A stretch of 64,000 nt of DNA from a virus: positions 62,001 through 126,000 of IMG/VR virus record IMGVR_UViG_3300020471_000004. One strand, written 5' to 3'. A program made the translations under genes and the position numbers. Every line of letters starts with the position of its first letter. Within the stretch, counting starts at the first letter, position 1. Shown piece by piece: positions 42,829-62,321 of the stretch. The notes under the pieces were generated by a model. The model had not been told where the DNA came from. It saw nothing but the letters and a program-made list of their open reading frames with translations, and searched no databases.

Positions 42829-43586
42829 TAGGGATCTCTCATAGGCTCTTTATACGGTTTCGGGCGGTCCGGAGGAATAGCATAGAAACAAATTTTAACC
42901 AGATCTAAAGCATTTAGGACCTAAAGGCATTTTTAATTCTTTGAATTTTTCCTAATTAATTGTTGGCTGTGGGGGTAGGGGGTATTTCCTTTACAACTAA
43001 AAATTAATTAATAAACTAAACAGAATCTCGTAAACTCGATTCTGTTACTCTTATTGAGTAACTTGATCGCATATTGAGCTCTTTCTATTAGATCTAATTC
43101 ATTGCTAATTGATTAATACGTATCTCCGATACTTACAAATCTAAAGGCAATCTTTTTAATTCTAAGGAATTTTTAATTTGCCTTAATTTATTTTTCTATG
43201 GGAAGAGATTTATCTCTTAGTTTAGTTCTAAAGAACTATTTACAGTTTTTAGACTAGTAACCGTACCCCGAGAGTTACCAATTTTAGAGGGCAAAAACGC
43301 TAGAATTTAACCTACGTAATATCTAGGAGCAGGCGAGCTAAAGAGATTTGTACCTCTGTACCAAATTGACCAAAATAAAAAACTTTTGAAATTTATTGTA
43401 AGTCATTGATTTATAAGAAAAGAAAGTTTATTTAGTATATTTTTTGAACGAAAATGACAGAATTAGCTGTAGGCAGGCTCTAGGTACGCAGCCCATTAAT
43501 AGCCACGCGCCTAGAGTGAAAATGAGGTTTTAGAAAAATTTAACTTTTTTCCAGTTTTGGCAAAAATAATTCAGTGCTAGGCACAA
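42829..43586. other. 758-base AT-rich non-coding region, candidate origin or control region
   Basis: No credible gene is seen. It contains several stem-loops: 43019-43046 (9-bp, AACAGAATC with GATTCTGTT), 43044-43062 (7-bp, overlapping the first by three bases), 43203-43218 (AAGAGAT with ATCTCTT), 43223-43238 (TAGTTCT with AGAACTA), and 43478-43516 (CTCTAGG with CCTAGAG). A G-rich tract GTGGGGGTAGGGGG lies near 42969. Two related AT-rich stretches beginning TCTAAAGGCA near 42905 and 43139 form an imperfect direct repeat. One exact AAACTGTAAA copy faces leftwards at 43239. It is the largest gap in the left arm. Confidence 0.6.
43239..43248 (-). promoter_or_regulatory. AAACTGTAAA promoter-like motif inside the non-coding gap
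   Basis: Exact minus-strand copy adjoining the TAGTTCT/AGAACTA palindrome. The next gene start is 411 bases away, so it may drive an untranslated RNA or long leader. Confidence 0.5.
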
Positions 43587-43814
43587 TTACTTTTTAGCAG
43601 TTTGTAGCTTTTTGGCAAGCTTGTTAGAAATTTTATCCATAGCAGCTTTGGCTTTCTTACTATCGTTTTCTTCAATTGCGGTAGCAAGCTGTTCGCCTTC
43701 AAAGTCACTAAGCATCGGCATAATCATTTTGAGCATCAGGCTTCTTTTTGACTTTGCTTTTTTCTTACGCGATACAGACTCTAGTTCTGTACAGGAGTTT
43801 AAATCAATATTCAT
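43587..43814 (-). CDS. small basic hypothetical protein (75 aa)
   Basis: A 75-residue basic helical protein (KKAKSKRSLMLKMIMPML near the middle). It starts 2 bases after the stop of the preceding gene. No family recognised; the composition suggests nucleic-acid binding or peripheral association. Confidence 0.7.
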   Translation of the reverse strand: MNIDLNSCTELESVSRKKKAKSKRSLMLKMIMPMLSDFEGEQLATAIEENDSKKAKAAMDKISNKLAKKLQTAKK

Positions 43815-55784: not shown

Positions 55785-57026
55785 ATGGCAAGAGGATTTG
55801 ATAACATTGATCCTAATGCAAATCAGAAAGGTGATAATCTTAAACCGGAAGAGATATTTGATATTTTCAAATTGACAGAGTGTACAAGTTATACTTCTTT
55901 CCGATTATTGCCTGGCGATATGCTACCTGTAAAAATGCATTGGATTAAAATCCGTGCTGGTAAGGATAAACGCGAAACTAAGATTCCTAAGTTGTGTGTT
56001 AGTTTTGACCCTGACAACGAGCGCGTTCCTTTAGAGGGTACAGATTGTCCTTACTGTAAGCTTTCAAGTGGTCAAGATGGCAGTCAGCAAACTAACCTTG
56101 CGTATTATGCAAATGCTATTGTTCGTGACATTCAAGAAGATGAACCGCGCAAGAAGGCTAAGCTTACAAAAGAAGAAAAGAAAACTGGTCACAAAGACGT
56201 TAAATCTAAAAGCTGGACACCTGTTCGAGTAATTCGTTTACCTAGCGGTCTTGCTGGTAAGATTAAAGAAATGAAAGAGCGTAATGGCGGTTATGCAGTT
56301 ACAGATCCTGATAACGGTATTGACGTAGACATTAAGTTCGATGACTCTCGTTCTGGTGCAGACAAATATCAGATTGACCGTGGTGAAAAGTCTCCTTTGG
56401 AAGATGACGAGTTAGAATATCTAACTTATGACCTAGGTGACCACTGCTTTGATTTGTTAGGTCGTGAAACACAAGAGCAGGCTGAAAAAGAGTTTGCTCG
56501 CATGGACATTATCGGTCATGATCAAATTGATGATGACGAAGAAGACGATGATGACGAAGACGATTTACCTCGCAAGTCTAAATCTAAAGGTAAAAAATCA
56601 CGCAAACGCGGACGTGACGAAGAAGATGACGATGGTGACGAAGACGAGGACGAGGACGAGGACGAAGAAGATTCACGTTCACGCCGCCGCAAGTCTGGTT
56701 CTAAGCGCTCTCGCCGTAGCTCTATTGATGACGATGATGACGAAGACGAGGAAGATGATGAAGACGATTCACCACGCTCTCGCCGTAAGTCTAAAAAGAA
56801 AACTAGTTCACGCCGACGCAGTTCGGTAGATGAGGACGATGATGACGATGACGAGGACGAAGAAGATTCTCGCTCTAGTCGCCGCAAAAAGTCTAAAAAG
56901 AAAACTAGTTCTCGTAAACGTAGCCGTGACGATGATGACGATGATGACGATGATGACGATGACGTTCCTCGCCGCCGTAAGTCAGGTGCTAAAAAGAAAA
57001 CTAGTTCACGTAGACGCCGCGGTTAA
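55785..57026 (+). CDS. ssDNA-binding protein (gp32-like) with alternating acidic/basic tail
   Basis: A 413-residue protein. The N-terminal domain has SFRLLPGDMLPVKMHWIKIR (read in parts) and a cysteine set (C71, C88, C91) like the zinc-containing OB fold of T4 gp32. From about 245 to the end the tail alternates long runs of D/E with SRRRKSKK-type basic blocks. Acidic tails of SSBs recruit partners; the basic blocks are unusual. It overlaps uvsX by one base and has a strong ribosome site (GGAGAAAAAG). Probably the coating protein of replication and recombination. Confidence 0.8.
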   Translation: MARGFDNIDPNANQKGDNLKPEEIFDIFKLTECTSYTSFRLLPGDMLPVKMHWIKIRAGKDKRETKIPKLCVSFDPDNERVPLEGTDCPYCKLSSGQDGSQQTNLAYYANAIVRDIQEDEPRKKAKLTKEEKKTGHKDVKSKSWTPVRVIRLPSGLAGKIKEMKERNGGYAVTDPDNGIDVDIKFDDSRSGADKYQIDRGEKSPLEDDELEYLTYDLGDHCFDLLGRETQEQAEKEFARMDIIGHDQIDDDEEDDDDEDDLPRKSKSKGKKSRKRGRDEEDDDGDEDEDEDEDEEDSRSRRRKSGSKRSRRSSIDDDDDEDEEDDEDDSPRSRRKSKKKTSSRRRSSVDEDDDDDDEDEEDSRSSRRKKSKKKTSSRKRSRDDDDDDDDDDDDVPRRRKSGAKKKTSSRRRRG

Positions 57027-58534
57027 TGCCTGCACTTAAAACAAAGGGGAAGCGCACAGCCTCCCCTAAAGCAAAGGCAACTAAGCCTTCAACTAAAGCA
57101 AAACGTTCTAAAAAGTCTGATACCGAAATTGCTCCGGTAGAAGACCAAAAGGACTTTTTTGACATTGGTGAACTTCTTGATGACCTTCAAGATGAAACGG
57201 ATAAAAAGTACGGTCTGGTATCAAGTGCGCTAGAGCGCTCTAGTGACCGAATGAGTACAGGTATTCTTTCTCTAGACCTACTGCTTTACGGCGGCATTCA
57301 ACCAGGCGGTTGGTACACTATCTACGGACCTGAACAGTCTGCTAAGTCAACACTGGCAATGACTATTTTGGCGCAAGCACTTCATGTCCGAATGACTAAA
57401 GGCTCTAAATTTGCCTGCGGTGTGTTTGACTTCGAAGGCTCGGTAGATGAAGAATACACAGGCAACATTATAAAATCTTTAGGTATTAAAGGTAATGCTG
57501 CTCAAGTATTCGGTGTACGTAACGATGAAGGCGGTTGGGAAATTCCTCCTTTAGCTCGTTATTACTCACATGACGTAGGTGATGACTTCTTTAAAGCACT
57601 TGGTAAAGTCAAACGTGGTCTTCCTGATAAGCAGACTATTAACGGTGAACCTTGCTATTTGTTCGAGCATACCAAAGCTAACAAGTCTAAGTTTGCAGGC
57701 ATGTACGATACCAAGTACTTGTCTAAGAACAACAAGATTAAAGTTCCTGCACAAGATGGTTTTATGCAAGGTCTTTACTTGTGTGACTCTTACCCTGCTA
57801 TGTTACCTGACGGTCTTGATGACGATGACCGTAATAGTGGTATGGCAGAGCAGGCACGTATGTTCTCGGAAGGTATCAAAAAAGTTAAAGGCGGGATGCG
57901 TAAAAAGGCAATGACTGTAATCGGTATCAATCAGTTACGTCTACGTCCTGCTACTATGTTTGGTAATCCTGAATACGAACCTTGCGGTGAAGCACTTAAA
58001 TTCTTTAGTGATGTTAGAATCAAGTCTACTCCGCGTAGCAGTGGCCCTAGCGGTTTCGTTGTTAACAAAGGCATCGTAGAAGAACCTAGCGTTACAGGTC
58101 GAGGTAAAGACACTTACCGTTTCTTGCGTCTAAAGACTACCAAGAACAAGCTGGGTGGTATGCCTCAACAAGAATGTTGGGCACGTATCTGGATTGCAGA
58201 CGGTTCTGGTGTTGCACGTGGTCTTGATCCTGCGTTTGATACTTTTGAATATCTTTCACTTCTTGGAATGGTTAGCGGAAACAAAAACAATTACAAGTTC
58301 AGTGAAGATTGTCCACTACACGGTGCTAAGAAGATTGACTGGCAAACCTTTAAACGCCTGGTGCTTTGTCCTCCTAAAGAGATAAAGCAGATATGCGAAG
58401 AACAAGGTATTAAACCAGTTAAGATTCGTGAGTGGTGTCAAAAGCGTTGTGCTAACGGCACACACCCTAAGTTGTTCAAAGAAATCTTGGTTTCTGCTAC
58501 TACTGGTAAGAAATCAGACGATGACGATGAATAA
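57026..58534 (+). CDS. RecA/UvsX-like recombinase
   Basis: A 502-residue strand-exchange ATPase. The core starts MSTGILSLDLLLYGGIQPGG, then Walker A GPEQSAKST (101-109), and FDFEGSVDEE and IGINQLRL give later catalytic and L1-like regions. A in place of G in Walker A (SAK for SGK) is unusual. The first 35 residues are lysine-rich and residues 190-250 hold an insert. The C-terminus contains a cysteine set (CPLHG, LCPPKEIKQIC, WCQKRC). It should work with SSB and SbcCD. Confidence 0.88.
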   Translation: MPALKTKGKRTASPKAKATKPSTKAKRSKKSDTEIAPVEDQKDFFDIGELLDDLQDETDKKYGLVSSALERSSDRMSTGILSLDLLLYGGIQPGGWYTIYGPEQSAKSTLAMTILAQALHVRMTKGSKFACGVFDFEGSVDEEYTGNIIKSLGIKGNAAQVFGVRNDEGGWEIPPLARYYSHDVGDDFFKALGKVKRGLPDKQTINGEPCYLFEHTKANKSKFAGMYDTKYLSKNNKIKVPAQDGFMQGLYLCDSYPAMLPDGLDDDDRNSGMAEQARMFSEGIKKVKGGMRKKAMTVIGINQLRLRPATMFGNPEYEPCGEALKFFSDVRIKSTPRSSGPSGFVVNKGIVEEPSVTGRGKDTYRFLRLKTTKNKLGGMPQQECWARIWIADGSGVARGLDPAFDTFEYLSLLGMVSGNKNNYKFSEDCPLHGAKKIDWQTFKRLVLCPPKEIKQICEEQGIKPVKIREWCQKRCANGTHPKLFKEILVSATTGKKSDDDDE

Positions 58535-58537
58535 TCA

Positions 58538-58547
58538 AAAACTGTAA
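58538..58547 (+). promoter_or_regulatory. AAACTGTAAA promoter-like motif before RNA region
   Basis: Exact plus-strand copy right after the uvsX stop. No protein gene starts until 59023, so it would drive the structured RNA and tRNA-like region. Confidence 0.6.
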
Positions 58548-58556
58548 ACATAATAC

Positions 58557-58617
58557 AGGCAGTAGTTCAGTTTTTATTTGCTCATGCAGTTAAAATCTTT
58601 TCTACCTGAACTACTGC
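58557..58617 (+). ncRNA. 13-bp perfect stem-loop
   Basis: GGCAGTAGTTCAG and CTGAACTACTGCC pair perfectly across a 35-base loop. There is no U-run afterwards, so this is not a typical terminator. It begins 10 bases after the promoter-like motif. Confidence 0.6.
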
Positions 58618-58630
58618 CGTATTCTACAAT

Positions 58631-58858
58631 CAACATAGCGATACTTTCTTGAAAGTCTAAGATAACGACACACGTAACCTCATCTACGTTGAGTATTAAA
58701 GACTAGAAACTAGGAACGTGCTGAGGAGCAAGATAGAGGGGCTTCCAATATGCAGACCGAAAGTGAGCGGGGATTCTCACAATGACTTACCTAACGTGAG
58801 CGAGTTGATCACGCAAACTAATAAGTAGGTTGTTTCGTTAGAAAGTATCGCTATGTTG
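58631..58858 (+). ncRNA. 228-base structured RNA closed by 19-bp perfect stem
   Basis: CAACATAGCGATACTTTCT (58631-58649) is exactly complementary to 58840-58858. Inside are further hairpins, for example ACTAG and CTAGT-like arms near 58700 and GTGAG with CTCAC near 58775-58793. A competing 6-bp hairpin (ACTTTC with GAAAGT, 58643-58656) overlaps the 5' arm of the main stem. There is no open frame with a ribosome site. It does not match tmRNA, RNase P or group I intron features that I know. Confidence 0.55.
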
Positions 58859-58867
58859 TTTTTCAAT

Positions 58868-59000
58868 GCAGAGAATCACGGTAACAGATTAGCTGGTCTA
58901 AATCCGTAGGTGCAATAACTAGTGTGCATCAGGAATACAGGACATGTGTTGCAGCATTGCTGGCGCAAAGCCTGTGTTGGTTCGATTCCAACTCTCTGCT
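58868..59000 (+). tRNA. tRNA-like element, no assignable anticodon
   Basis: GCAGAGA (58868-58874) pairs perfectly with TCTCTGC (58993-58999), and a good T arm (GTTGG, loop TTCGATT, CCAAC; 58976-58992) directly precedes the 3' strand. However the 5' and 3' halves are 101 bases apart, so there is no standard cloverleaf. Inside lie CAGC/GCTG and GGC/GCC hairpins, and GATTAG/CTAATC-like arms near 58887. CCA is not encoded. It could be a tRNA carrying an insertion, or a tRNA-like domain of a larger RNA. Confidence 0.45.
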
Positions 59001-59022
59001 CCCTATTATTAAAAAGGTTTGT

Positions 59023-59553
59023 ATGGATACTAACGATATAATCAATGGTTTAAACTCTAAAGTAAACTCTCTTACTGAGCTTGTTGAATCCTTACAGTCC
59101 CATAATGGTTCACTACAAGACCAGATTCATAAAATGGTAACTGATTACGGTGATGCTTGGTATGACGGTTACCGTGCTGCGCAAAAAGACCAGAAAGAGC
59201 TTATTGAAAACTTTGTTTCTGAACGGCGCGAAGAAGGTGTAGACTCCGACCTTCCCTCTACTATATCAGAACTTTACTCTGAACAAGACGTTAGAGAAAT
59301 GAGTGAGGCAGCCGAGTCTCTTTACGAAGCTAAATCTGTCGGTCGCAAGTTCGTTATGGAGTCTAGCGGTTACTACGGAATCGTTCGACTACCTGAAGAG
59401 TTATTCGTTGATCTTGATCCTGAATTTGTGTTAAGTAAATCTACCGACACTACCAAGTTCATGTGCGCTAATTCTAAAGAAAAAGAGTACCTAGAGAGCT
59501 TAGGTGTTCAGGTCGTTGAAGTTTGTGATTGGTACAAGCTAGTAAAAGATTAA
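59023..59553 (+). CDS. hypothetical protein with coiled coil (176 aa)
   Basis: The start chosen is ATG at 59023 (AAGG upstream); the longer frame from 58924 runs through the tRNA-like element. A coiled coil covers about residues 8-40, and acidic sections follow. No family recognised. It sits between RNA elements. Confidence 0.75.
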   Translation: MDTNDIINGLNSKVNSLTELVESLQSHNGSLQDQIHKMVTDYGDAWYDGYRAAQKDQKELIENFVSERREEGVDSDLPSTISELYSEQDVREMSEAAESLYEAKSVGRKFVMESSGYYGIVRLPEELFVDLDPEFVLSKSTDTTKFMCANSKEKEYLESLGVQVVEVCDWYKLVKD

Positions 59554-59556
59554 ACA

Positions 59557-59627
59557 GGAGACAAACGGTTAGCTAGAGGATTTCAACCCTTGATTGCTGG
59601 TGGGTTCGAGTCCCCCTGTCTTCACCA
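59557..59627 (+). tRNA. tRNA gene, unusual; possible tRNA-Glu (TTC)
   Basis: Acceptor arms GGAGACA and TGTCTTC pair (one G-U) and CCA is encoded, giving 71 bases in total. The T arm is GTGGG, loop TTCGAGT, CCCCC, with one mismatch. Only 34 bases remain for the D arm, anticodon arm and variable loop. The best anticodon arm has TTC at 59582-59584, with T33 and A37 in place, but the stem has a mismatch and a wobble pair. A D arm would be almost absent. It may be degenerate or unconventional. Confidence 0.55.
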
Positions 59628-59630
59628 CAT

Positions 59631-59706
59631 GCCCCTATAGCTCAGTTGGTAGAGCAAACGACTCATAATCGTCAGGTCCCTGGTTCAAGCCCAGGTAGGG
59701 GCACCA
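59631..59706 (+). tRNA. tRNA with CAT anticodon (Met or Ile-lysidine type)
   Basis: A 76-base tRNA with GCCCCTA paired to TAGGGGC, D arm GCTCAGTTGGTAGAGC, anticodon CAT at 59664-59666 (position 34-36), T arm CCTGG, TTCAAGC, CCAGG and encoded CCA. The G1-C72 pair argues against initiator tRNA; elongator Met or Ile2 are both possible. Confidence 0.95.
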
Positions 59707-59725
59707 CTTTAACCCAGGTATTATA

Positions 59726-60055
59726 ATGCAAATAGAAGACACTTTTCCTAACTACAAGCATGAAATGTTTTCAGCCTTGTCTGATTGGGGATTTACCCTA
59801 GTACCTATGCGTGACAGTTCTCCTAATATAACTATTTACAACGGAGACTCCTTAACGTACCCTAATATGTATGTCTGTGAGTTCGATACTATAGAAGAGC
59901 TTCACGCTAGCCTTAGATATGCCGCTAAAGAGTTTACAGACCTTCAAGACAAAAACTATTCGGGTAATTTTTATAAGTTCTTTATGTTTAGCCGACCTGA
60001 GTACTCAGAAGGCACCTGGCACTTTTCGTTTACGTTTGTTCAAGTTTGTATTTAA
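59726..60055 (+). CDS. hypothetical protein (109 aa)
   Basis: A 109-residue protein starting 19 bases after the tRNA. Rich in aromatic residues (FYKFFMFSRPEYSEGTWHFSF). No family recognised. Confidence 0.7.
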   Translation: MQIEDTFPNYKHEMFSALSDWGFTLVPMRDSSPNITIYNGDSLTYPNMYVCEFDTIEELHASLRYAAKEFTDLQDKNYSGNFYKFFMFSRPEYSEGTWHFSFTFVQVCI

Positions 60056-60266
60056 TCTACAGATACTAAACTAATTTAAAGCTATACGAATCTGAGGTAA
60101 AATAGCGCCACCTCAGAGGCTCTTGCGATAAAGGCAGGAGTTTACAAACAGGCGCACCTACTAAGGAGCAAGTTATGTTGAATAACTGAATTTGTTAGAG
60201 GACCACCTGATTGCTTTTATTTGCTTTGTTTAATCCGATTTACAAACCATTTAAAAGGTAATCATT
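60056..60266 (+). other. 211-base non-coding gap with hairpins
   Basis: No convincing gene is visible. A perfect 7-bp hairpin (CTGAGGT with ACCTCAG) is at about 60092-60116, and AGTTAT with ATAACT pair near 60172-60188. The remainder is AT-rich and leads to the next ribosome site (AAAGGTAATCATT). It may be a leader or another structured RNA. Confidence 0.45.
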
Positions 60267-60602
60267 ATGTCTAAATTTCTTAAAGTTAAACTTAAATCGC
60301 TTGCAGAAGAACAACGCGTTATCAAAAAAGAAGAGTCTAAGTACAAAGGCCCGCGATGGGGCTCTAACTGGACTCGCATACTTTTAATGACGCATCGATT
60401 GTATGCTGTACGCCCAGAGATACGGGCGACTCATTTAGCATACGGGTATCTTCAAGGAAAGCCGCTTTGCTGTATTGAATCATCGCAATCTCGTACTGAA
60501 CCTGATTGGGATAGGGTATTCGCAATGGTAAAGAAATACGGTACTTACCAACAAGCAAAAGACTTTGAGCAATGGAAACAACCTCTATCTAAAGCTGCTT
60601 AA
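60267..60602 (+). CDS. small phage protein (111 aa)
   Basis: A 111-residue basic protein. The pattern EEQRVIKKEESKYKGP, then VRPEIRATHLAYGYL and PDWDRVFAMVKKYG, recurs in small proteins of other tailed phages as far as I recall, but no function is established. Good ribosome site. It ends directly at the first stem-loop of the RNA region. Confidence 0.75.
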   Translation: MSKFLKVKLKSLAEEQRVIKKEESKYKGPRWGSNWTRILLMTHRLYAVRPEIRATHLAYGYLQGKPLCCIESSQSRTEPDWDRVFAMVKKYGTYQQAKDFEQWKQPLSKAA

Positions 60603-60647
60603 AAAAGGCGGCGGTCTAGAGTTATCTAGGCTGCTGCCGACCCTTTC

Positions 60648-60706
60648 TGCCAGTTCGTTTATTCTCCTTAATTGTGGCAAGGTATCTTCTTGTAAACGAA
60701 CTGGCA
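60648..60706 (+). ncRNA. 14-bp stem-loop of the RNA array
   Basis: TGCCAGTTCGTTTA pairs perfectly with TAAACGAACTGGCA over a 31-base loop; CCTCTTTTAG follows. It is one of two very long perfect stems of the array and could be a free small RNA or a processing site. Confidence 0.6.
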
Positions 60707-60715
60707 CCTCTTTTA

Positions 60716-60781
60716 GCTGACAAGGCTCCCCAGGTTAGACTGAGTGTTTCATGCCTGTTGCTTTCAGTCTGCCTTGTCGGC
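60716..60781 (+). ncRNA. two-tier stem-loop of the RNA array
   Basis: GCTGACAAGGC pairs with GCCTTGTCGGC (11 bp, one G-U), and within it AGACTGA pairs with TCAGTCT (7 bp). ACCTTTATT follows, a short U-rich tail. Confidence 0.6.
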
Positions 60782-60826
60782 ACCTTTATTCAAACAGCTT
60801 CTTACTGATCATAGGCTAGCTGTTTC

Positions 60827-60842
60827 GCTCTTTAACAATTTA
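60827..60842 (+). promoter_or_regulatory. boxA antitermination element
   Basis: GCTCTTTAACAATTTA matches the boxA core of gammaproteobacterial rRNA leaders, the RNA site bound by NusB and ribosomal protein S10 (NusE), which makes RNA polymerase resist Rho termination. In the middle of a region of hairpins it could let transcription continue to the genes further right, or bind the Nus proteins as a decoy. Confidence 0.65.
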
Positions 60843-61240
60843 GAATCTTGCACCTTGCTGCCTAACACAACGACTCGGAAGGTTACGTGTTAGAACCAGG
60901 GTGCCGATACACTGTAGGTAACTTAACAAGGCAAGAGGCAAACCTCATGCTCTGTACCGATGCTTTGTTCTACAGTGTTTTTATTAGGTGCAGATAGACC
61001 AATGTCTTTATTCGTCAAAGGATATTGGTTGAACAACTTACATTAAACCTATGCACTTTTGCAAGCATTAAACTATATGTACTGGCGAACGATTCTGTAG
61101 GGCACAGAGGGATCAAATATATACTGCTCCAATGCTCAGGATGCAGACACGCATTGATACTTTCAAATCCTTTATAATCAATAGTGTATAAGATAACAGC
61201 CGTGCGCCTTAAAAACAGGAACGCCTGTAATCAAAGGATA

Positions 61241-61300
61241 GGCACCTAGGTAAAGCCTAAGTTAAGCACTTCCCTTTACCTAGGTGCCGACCGTATTTTT
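61241..61300 (+). terminator. 15-bp perfect stem with U-run, last element of the array
   Basis: GGCACCTAGGTAAAG pairs perfectly with CTTTACCTAGGTGCC across an 18-base loop, followed by GACCGTATTTTTT. It reads as a strong terminator at the end of the RNA array, ahead of the gene at 61409. Confidence 0.7.
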
Positions 61301-61408
61301 TGAGTGGCAGATAAATACAAATTGTCGTCAGACACAGGGTGTCCTTAACCTGTAGATTCGGTTAGAACCTAACTGACCTTTCTGTCTCTTTTTATTCTGG
61401 AGAACTTT

Positions 61409-61684
61409 ATGGCTTTCGGCTTTCTTGTACCAGAAGGTACTTATGTAAACTACGGACTTAATGATTCTAGTAGTTCGCTTTTTGTAAATGTTCCTTTGAA
61501 CTACTCTGCTGTTATCTTTACTATGCTCAAGTCGCGTAATACCCAAGGTAACCGCAGAGGCTACGATTGGTCTATTGAGTTCTATGTAGGACCTGATGAA
61601 ATTGGCGCAGTGTGGGTTTATAGTTCTGAAAAAGCTCGCGATGACGATTACGAAAGAATGCTTTCTACTACTTTCGTAGGCTAA
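61409..61684 (+). CDS. small hypothetical protein (91 aa)
   Basis: A 91-residue protein with good ribosome site (TGGAGAACTTT). Beta-rich (YVNYGLNDSSSSLFVNVPLNY). No family recognised. An exact promoter-like motif overlaps its stop codon. Confidence 0.75.
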   Translation: MAFGFLVPEGTYVNYGLNDSSSSLFVNVPLNYSAVIFTMLKSRNTQGNRRGYDWSIEFYVGPDEIGAVWVYSSEKARDDDYERMLSTTFVG

Positions 61685-61693
61685 AACTGTAAA
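61684..61693 (+). promoter_or_regulatory. AAACTGTAAA promoter-like motif
   Basis: Exact plus-strand copy overlapping the stop of the gene at 61409, 31 bases before the start at 61724. Confidence 0.65.
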
Positions 61694-61723
61694 CACTTAT
61701 AGCCCACTTAACAGGAGAATGTA

Positions 61724-62044
61724 ATGGATAACGCTGAGTTTAATTCAAATACCCTTAACGCTAACATCAATAAAGTTATTGAACAGATTAAAGATCTAGT
61801 GGAGCTAGGTAACAAGTTTACAGAGTTCCCTAATCCGATTGGTTCGCAGTTCTTGAGTGAAAAGCGTCCTGTCCGTTACTTCGAGTTAGCTAATATGTTG
61901 CGCGAACTGGTTCAGATTCGCAAGGATACTAAATCGACTATTCTTCAATACATAGAAGAGATAAATCGAATTCAAGCCGATGCAGAGTCTGCTATTTCGG
62001 CTTTCGAAAAACCTAAACTTGCTCAGGCAGTTTCTAAGAAATAA
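61724..62044 (+). CDS. small helical protein (106 aa)
   Basis: A 106-residue acidic helical protein with good ribosome site (AGGAGAATGTA). Heptad-like spacing (LANMLRELVQIRKDTKS). Unknown function. A strong terminator follows it. Confidence 0.8.
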   Translation: MDNAEFNSNTLNANINKVIEQIKDLVELGNKFTEFPNPIGSQFLSEKRPVRYFELANMLRELVQIRKDTKSTILQYIEEINRIQADAESAISAFEKPKLAQAVSKK

Positions 62045-62052
62045 GTTTTACC

Positions 62053-62131
62053 CCGCCTAGCTAGGTGGCGCTGTACGCTACTTGCGCCCCAACAATAGCG
62101 CCTTACTCTGAACCTAGCTAGGTGGTTTTTT
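62053..62131 (+). terminator. long-stem terminator
   Basis: CCGCCTAGCTAGGT pairs with ACCTAGCTAGGTGG (14 bp, one G-U) and continues inwards as GGCGCT with AGCGCC. TTTTTT follows. The arms contain the palindrome CCTAGCTAGG, so each can also pair with itself. Confidence 0.75.
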
Positions 62132-62133
62132 GA

Positions 62134-62239
62134 GTATATCAAGATACTGCTTACTTCCCAGTATCGGCGGCAACTTACCGCATTATACTGCCTAAAGCTT
62201 TGACCCCTTTAGGCAGTATCTTGATATGCTTCTCATATC
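62134..62239 (+). ncRNA. competing hairpins, possible RNA switch
   Basis: TATCAAGATACTGC (62137-62150) pairs perfectly with 62213-62226. ATACTGCCTAAAG (62185-62197) pairs perfectly with 62207-62219, and GATATG (62223-62228) pairs with CATATC (62234-62239). The three stems share bases, so they exclude each other. ATACTGC occurs in both 5' arms. Confidence 0.6.
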
Positions 62240-62287
62240 ACCTCGATGATTGTTGTAGTAATGTTCCATGCGCTCACATGGATCTTT

Positions 62288-62321
62288 AGCCCAGATGCTT
62301 ACCCTAGCTCTGGGCTTTTTT
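62288..62321 (+). terminator. intrinsic terminator
   Basis: AGCCCAGA and TCTGGGCT form an 8-bp stem with a 13-base loop, followed directly by TTTTT. It is downstream of the competing hairpins and could be the output of that element. Confidence 0.8.

Follow-up and report, generated by a model that had tools for sequence, protein, structure and literature searches.

What fills the 806 bases that a giant phage keeps between two small genes? The window (the whole stretch of DNA analysed, 64,000 nucleotides) corresponds to positions 62001-126000 in a virus record of 232,692 bases. Near its end the upstream ORF (60267-60602, hereafter ORF 60267) stops at 60602 and the downstream ORF (61409-61684, hereafter ORF 61409) begins at 61409; neither of these small flanking ORFs has a match above cut-off in PHROGs or Pfam. 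No convincing ORF was found in the gap itself (60603-61408), where the longest ATG-initiated frame has 28 amino acids. What direct pairing and folding do find there is a row of about nine successive stem-loops (Table 1), in agreement with the original prediction of at least eight, whose coordinates are correct. The two perfect stems of 14 and 15 bp that it described are those of W2 and W10. The part of the gap around 61030-61240 is weakly structured. The hexamers said to be common to the arms are present (GGCACC three times, GGTGCC twice; none of the other arrays compared has either), but with p-values of only 0.055 and 0.235, respectively, they are weak evidence.

Table 1. Positions in the window of the predicted RNA elements in and around the gap at 60603-61408 (z, folding z-score)
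Feature	Position	Strand	Description
Promoter-like motif	58541-58555	+	ACTGTAAACATAATA; just past recA, upstream of the RNA-rich region
Stem-loop	58558-58618	+	13 bp perfect, loop 35
ncRNA-A	58630-58858	+	conserved structured RNA of approximately 230 nt; long, nearly invariant outer stem; same cluster
tRNA-Met	59631-59706		ARAGORN
Leader element	60156-60209	+	CAAGTTATGTTGAATAACTGAAT...TAGAGGACC; nearly invariant in NCTB L008:9023-9077
W1 stem-loop	60607-60638	+	14 pairs, 3 G-U, loop 4; begins 4 nt past the ORF 60267 stop codon
W2 stem-loop	60648-60706	+	14 bp perfect, loop 31 with TTCTCCTTAATTGT; z -6.3
W3 stem-loop	60716-60781	+	11 pairs (1 G-U), loop 44, hairpin inside loop
W4 stem-loop	60792-60825	+	8 bp, loop 18 with CTTACTGATCAT
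W5 stem-loop	60850-60903	+	imperfect outer stem of approximately 8 pairs; inner 7-bp hairpin CTAACAC/GTGTTAG
W6 stem-loop	60909-60978	+	9 bp perfect, loop 52 with inner hairpin, then TTTTATT
W7 stem-loop	60998-61029	+	12 pairs (2 G-U), loop 8
W10 stem-loop	61241-61288	+	15 bp perfect, loop 18; z -6.4
W11 branched stem-loop	61306-61386	+	unpaired AAATACAAATTG and hairpin GGTTAG/CTAAC
Promoter-like motif, second copy	61686-61700	+	ACTGTAAACACTTAT; motif match
W12 stem-loop, next gap downstream	62053-62125	+	14 pairs, then TTTTTT; z -5.7
W13 stem-loop, next gap downstream	62133-62230	+	21 pairs (2 G-U), branched interior; z -7.4

Does the gap fold better than expected by chance, and on which strand? 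Perfect stems of at least 9 bp number 3 in the gap versus 0.20 in dinucleotide shuffles (a count reached by 0 of 200), and those of at least 12 bp number 2 versus 0.01. Perfect stems of at least 9 bp are equally dense at a few other genomic sites, so the signal lies in the overall stability of the fold and in the run of units rather than in perfect stems alone. The whole gap folds with a z of -8.5 on the + strand and -5.1 on the - strand. Over the 811-nt region the excess stability relative to shuffles is 25% and 16%, respectively, while among 64 random 811-nt segments of this genome the median is 5% and the highest value 12%. When the region is scanned in sliding segments of 130 nt, the mean z is -2.4 on the + strand and -1.1 on the - strand, compared with -0.3 to -0.7 in coding controls. 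The long stems of the gap contain six G-U pairs and no A-C mismatch (nine and none when the next gap downstream is included); applied alone to NCTB, L001 and other relatives, this test is not decisive. The stability bias toward the + strand and the preference for G-U over A-C point to an RNA made from the + strand, and the gap is probably selected as + strand RNA and not as DNA.

Is the structure kept in a related phage? A search with recA (57026-58534) identifies NCTB (LT598654; coordinates given as L008) as the nearest relative whose genome is known, with a protein identity of 78-81%. NCTB belongs to the Lu11/PaBG/Dickeya/Erwinia “Lupandier” group of jumbo phages (PMC7412058; the same paper on PaBG gives the contigs CENZ01040713 and CEPA01131689 as near to NCTB). 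Its syntenic gap (L008:9473-10500; 1,028 nt) is flanked by homologues of ORF 60267 (67%) and ORF 61409 (29%), and the record has no RNA feature there; the only annotation is a reverse-strand ORF overlapping the 3' end of the gap. Loss of pairing in relatives had been named as one finding that would speak against the original prediction, and it is not seen in NCTB: the gap there is also an array of long-loop hairpins, with five perfect stems of at least 9 bp (0.28 in shuffles) and an excess stability of 18-21%. The two loci are alike in gene context, array architecture and two to three loops; they differ in that the NCTB stems are largely changed, one unit has moved, and a 58-amino-acid ORF and a promoter-like motif are inserted within the NCTB array.

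Sequence similarity between the two arrays as a whole is weak (best local score, p-value 0.05-0.09; sum of the top eight, p-value 0.015). A loop-by-loop comparison covers 72 pairs, with shuffled controls. The W11 loop resembles that of NCTB hairpin N3 (L008:9846-9932; AAATACAAATTG and GGTTAG/CTAAC), a match equaled by 0 of 3000 shuffles. The W2 loop matches that of N2 (TTCTCCTTRATTGT; p-value 0.002), and the two hairpins hold the second position in both arrays. W3 matches N1 with a p-value of 0.0003, but over 11 nt in a short loop, and the match of W4 to N4 is weak (p-value 0.036). A tentative counterpart of W10 (L008:10407-10464) resembles it chiefly in where it stands, at or one before the end of the array, and in a GACC tail; the match between the two loops is not significant. 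The stems have drifted, and of the 10 aligned pairs of W2, five are the same, five are compensatory and none is broken, while the six of W11 comprise one the same, one one-sided, four compensatory and none broken (two sequences in each case). Since the stems are well paired in both phages, the lack of broken pairs means that pairing is maintained; it does not by itself prove homology. The last unit here, W11, is third in NCTB; therefore, the order of units has changed. Unit-by-unit homology is firm for W11 alone and fair for W2. Two hairpin loops are common to both phages at a level above chance: one keeps its position, the other has moved.

The strand-specific stability, the G-U bias, the lack of an ORF, the structured NCTB gap and, on two sequences per hairpin, the apparently compensatory changes in the stems support the idea of a structured non-coding RNA. 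On these comparisons the hairpin RNAs of the gap are probably real and useful. But are they one RNA or many? The whole gap might be a single large ornate RNA, forming one particle with the hairpins as its arms, as in the GOLLD and ROOL families (PMC12286853). Like these large structured phage RNAs, the gap lies near tRNA genes (tRNA-Met and tRNA-like pieces) and has a similar total length of approximately 800 nt; the z of -8.5 for the gap as a whole agrees with a single molecule. GOLLD and ROOL have one conserved global fold, in contrast to the local hairpins in shuffled order found here, where the predicted fold is a row of such hairpins with little long-range pairing. The displacement of W11 is hard to reconcile with a single fold, as is the 58-amino-acid ORF within the NCTB stretch. 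Of the attributes of the two families, the location by tRNA genes is found and a covariance-model match is not: cmscan against Rfam gives no GOLLD or ROOL match at the gathering score or up to an E-value of 10 over 58500-62300, and none in the relatives L001, L002 and L011 up to an E-value of 2. The array matches no other Rfam family either. A second precedent is phage ICP1, which has an abundant orf-less transcript of approximately 800 nt (PMC7567579). By its description, that too is a gene-free stretch of approximately 1 kb in a lytic phage with a suspected non-coding RNA. ICP1 lacks tRNAs, and its transcript is documented by RNA-seq, whereas the RNAs of the array here are predicted from sequence. 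We consider a single large RNA unlikely; separate units are favored because the loops are constant while the stems drift and the order changes.

Equally doubtful is the view that the hairpins are simply part of mRNA architecture, i.e., 3' or 5' untranslated structure of the flanking genes serving stability, RNase barriers or attenuation, with no role in trans. The surrounding genes are all on the + strand, W1 follows the stop codon of ORF 60267 almost at once, and the last hairpin is terminator-like and stands ahead of ORF 61409. Yet nine units in 800 nt far exceed what such a role needs, homologues of ORF 60267 occur in other phages without the array, and shared loops on changed stems point to a function of the loops. 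As to a series of intrinsic terminators, U-rich tails do occur in places, as described, but most are not terminators: by the criteria of a GC-rich stem, a short loop and a T run, the last hairpin alone qualifies. The constancy of the loops, the drift of the stems and the reordering also argue against plain terminators.

The neighborhood of the gap contains further RNA elements (Table 1). The promoter-like motif belongs to a type, AAAACTGTAAAYA, that is annotated as a putative middle/late promoter in Lu11; it has 10 matches in the genome (reversed control, 0). In NCTB it stands directly before the conserved RNA (L008:5822), and in L001 and L002 before tRNA genes. The placement of these sites ahead of the RNA region here, the conserved RNA and the tRNA genes suggests that the cluster may be a middle- or late-phase product. 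The conserved RNA, ncRNA-A, aligns with NCTB L008:5834-6075 with a local score of 86.5 (25.3 +/- 3.9 in shuffles). Its 42 consensus pairs include seven compensatory changes and no broken pair (two sequences), the fold has a z of -2.7 and -4.1, and it contains the hairpin GTGAG-CRGGGATY-CTCAC. It is seen only in this virus and NCTB and has no match in Rfam. A search of IMG/VR for its 3' arm returns two matches, which we regard as chance because both lie inside ORFs and lack the partner arm. The leader element scores 71.5 against NCTB (20.8 +/- 3.8 in shuffles) and lies approximately 57-60 nt ahead of ORF 60267 in both phages, a position in which it might be a cis-regulator; an exact search of IMG/VR for it found no match.

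Two tRNA-like pieces accompany the tRNA-Met gene. The first (59557-59627) has a 7-bp acceptor GGAGACA/TGTCTTC followed by CCA and an odd D arm; it is missed by ARAGORN and weakly matches the tmRNA model (E-value 0.01). The second (58869-59003) is a possible tRNA-like RNA of approximately 133 nt with ends GCAGAGA/TCTCTGC, a T arm GTTGGTTCGATTCCAAC and a long insert. Elsewhere in the window, positions 42845-43611 (767 nt) form the longest ORF-free gap among the genome pieces scanned, with two perfect 9-bp stems, approximately 2-3 kb before the switch in gene direction at 45.4 kb.

How far does the arrangement extend among more distant relatives? L001 (261 kb), L011 (287 kb), L002 (262 kb) and L017/L018 all carry tRNA genes (types including tRNA-Met, -Lys and -Gly) at the same site, together with a structured and mostly non-coding stretch of 1-1.4 kb downstream of recA. 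Its excess stability is 17-23% in L001, L011 and L002 and 8% in L017. In L001, L011 and L017 the stretch stops short of a gene that resembles a dTMP kinase in sequence. One loop family (CATATTAC) recurs in L001, L011 and L017, each time in the final hairpin, and another (GGGGTTCC) in L011, L017 and L002; over all arrays, nine loop pairs reach a p-value < 0.003 where 3.1 are expected. Small ORFs occupy part of the stretch in L001, L011 and L017. A conserved frame of 64-66 amino acids with the C-terminus ...HKPAHYKxSL lies inside the structured stretch at approximately L011:15318-15512 and L017:16911-17108; because it is coding, we set it aside. No comparable gap follows recA in Dickeya JA29 or Erwinia SNUABM_5, phages other than these that encode relatives of ORF 60267 have no array, and a recA search of GTDB genomes did not find relatives.

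Several other features of these genomes deserve mention. At L011:14680-14970 a perfect 23-bp outer stem closes off approximately 245 nt, with a T run behind it; this is likely a large structured RNA, and its sequence is unlike that of the approximately 230-nt RNA at 58630. The recA frames of L017 (9857-12739), L018 (9857-12088), L032 (9848-12250) and L010 (9875-12436) are far longer than 502 amino acids, and their homology is split near residue 327-332, with an in-frame insertion such as an intein probable. In L003 recA is split into three pieces. ARAGORN predicts a tRNA at L065:3045-3117 with the anticodon TTA, which would read a stop codon; it adjoins a homologue of ORF 60267.

Given the tRNA-Met at 59631, the tRNA-like pieces nearby and the tRNA genes that relatives have at this site, the array might consist of remnants of tRNA or other RNA genes undergoing slow loss only. 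We think this very unlikely. Neither ARAGORN nor Rfam finds a tRNA cloverleaf in 60603-61408, decay would erase perfect stems of 14-15 bp, and compensatory change in the stems, together with constant loops and reordering, speaks against it. An element acting as DNA (an origin, packaging or recombination site) is the least probable of all: inverted repeats exist in DNA too and the - strand also folds better than shuffled sequence, but stability and the excess of G-U over A-C are biased to one strand, and the cumulative GC-skew minimum lies near 46-48 kb rather than at the gap.

What might the loops bind? We examined several candidate targets and rejected them. Anti-Shine-Dalgarno loops are not supported: CTCCTT is enriched on the + strand over all arrays (nine versus two) but ranks third among hexamers and is not significant after correction. 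Pairing of the loops with the regions where the phage's genes start is no better than for shuffled loops; the W4 loop reaches 1/25, which is not significant over nine loops. The suggestion of a sponge or protein-binding array found no signal for the CsrA/RsmA type, as GGA occurs 65 times over all arrays (73.5 +/- 6.8 in shuffles). The sponge RNAs CsrB and RsmZ are also arrays of stem-loops in one RNA; the array here differs in having no GGA excess and in loops that vary between units, with no single repeated motif. Among its tRNA genes phage T4 likewise has stable, small structured RNAs that are not tRNAs, with far fewer units than here. A literature search on non-coding RNA arrays of jumbo phages found nothing for this phage group.

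Taken together, we favor, at about an even chance, a modular cluster of small structured + strand non-coding RNAs set in an island of non-coding RNA and tRNA genes in NCTB-like jumbo phages. Read-through transcription from AAAACTGTAAAYA-type phage promoters would probably produce the array midway through or late in infection. In each unit a long clamp stem, free to change in sequence as long as it stays paired, would hold an asymmetric and partly unpaired loop. The clamp stems may protect the units or guide processing of the RNase III or RNase E type, and the loops may be the part that acts in trans, with RNA or protein as the binding partner. The likeliest mechanism would be processed RNAs that work by way of their loops. 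A more far-reaching picture, which we consider unlikely, is a trans-acting hairpin array in which fixed loops sit on drifting clamps and units are gained, lost and reordered like genes, as swappable RNA effectors against host factors.

The original prediction of a possible new class of RNA is too strong, because firm homology is limited to one or two units in two phages and phage non-coding RNAs by tRNA genes are already known; a clamp-stem hairpin array whose units change order would be a fresh variant of these. These giant phages devote approximately 0.8-1.4 kb of scarce genome to this site without coding any large protein. If the units are separate and act in trans, the site would be a phage RNA-effector island overlooked by standard annotation, with loops that can be tested. 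The hypothesis can be tested directly, starting from the NCTB locus, the promoter motif and the approximately 230-nt conserved RNA upstream.
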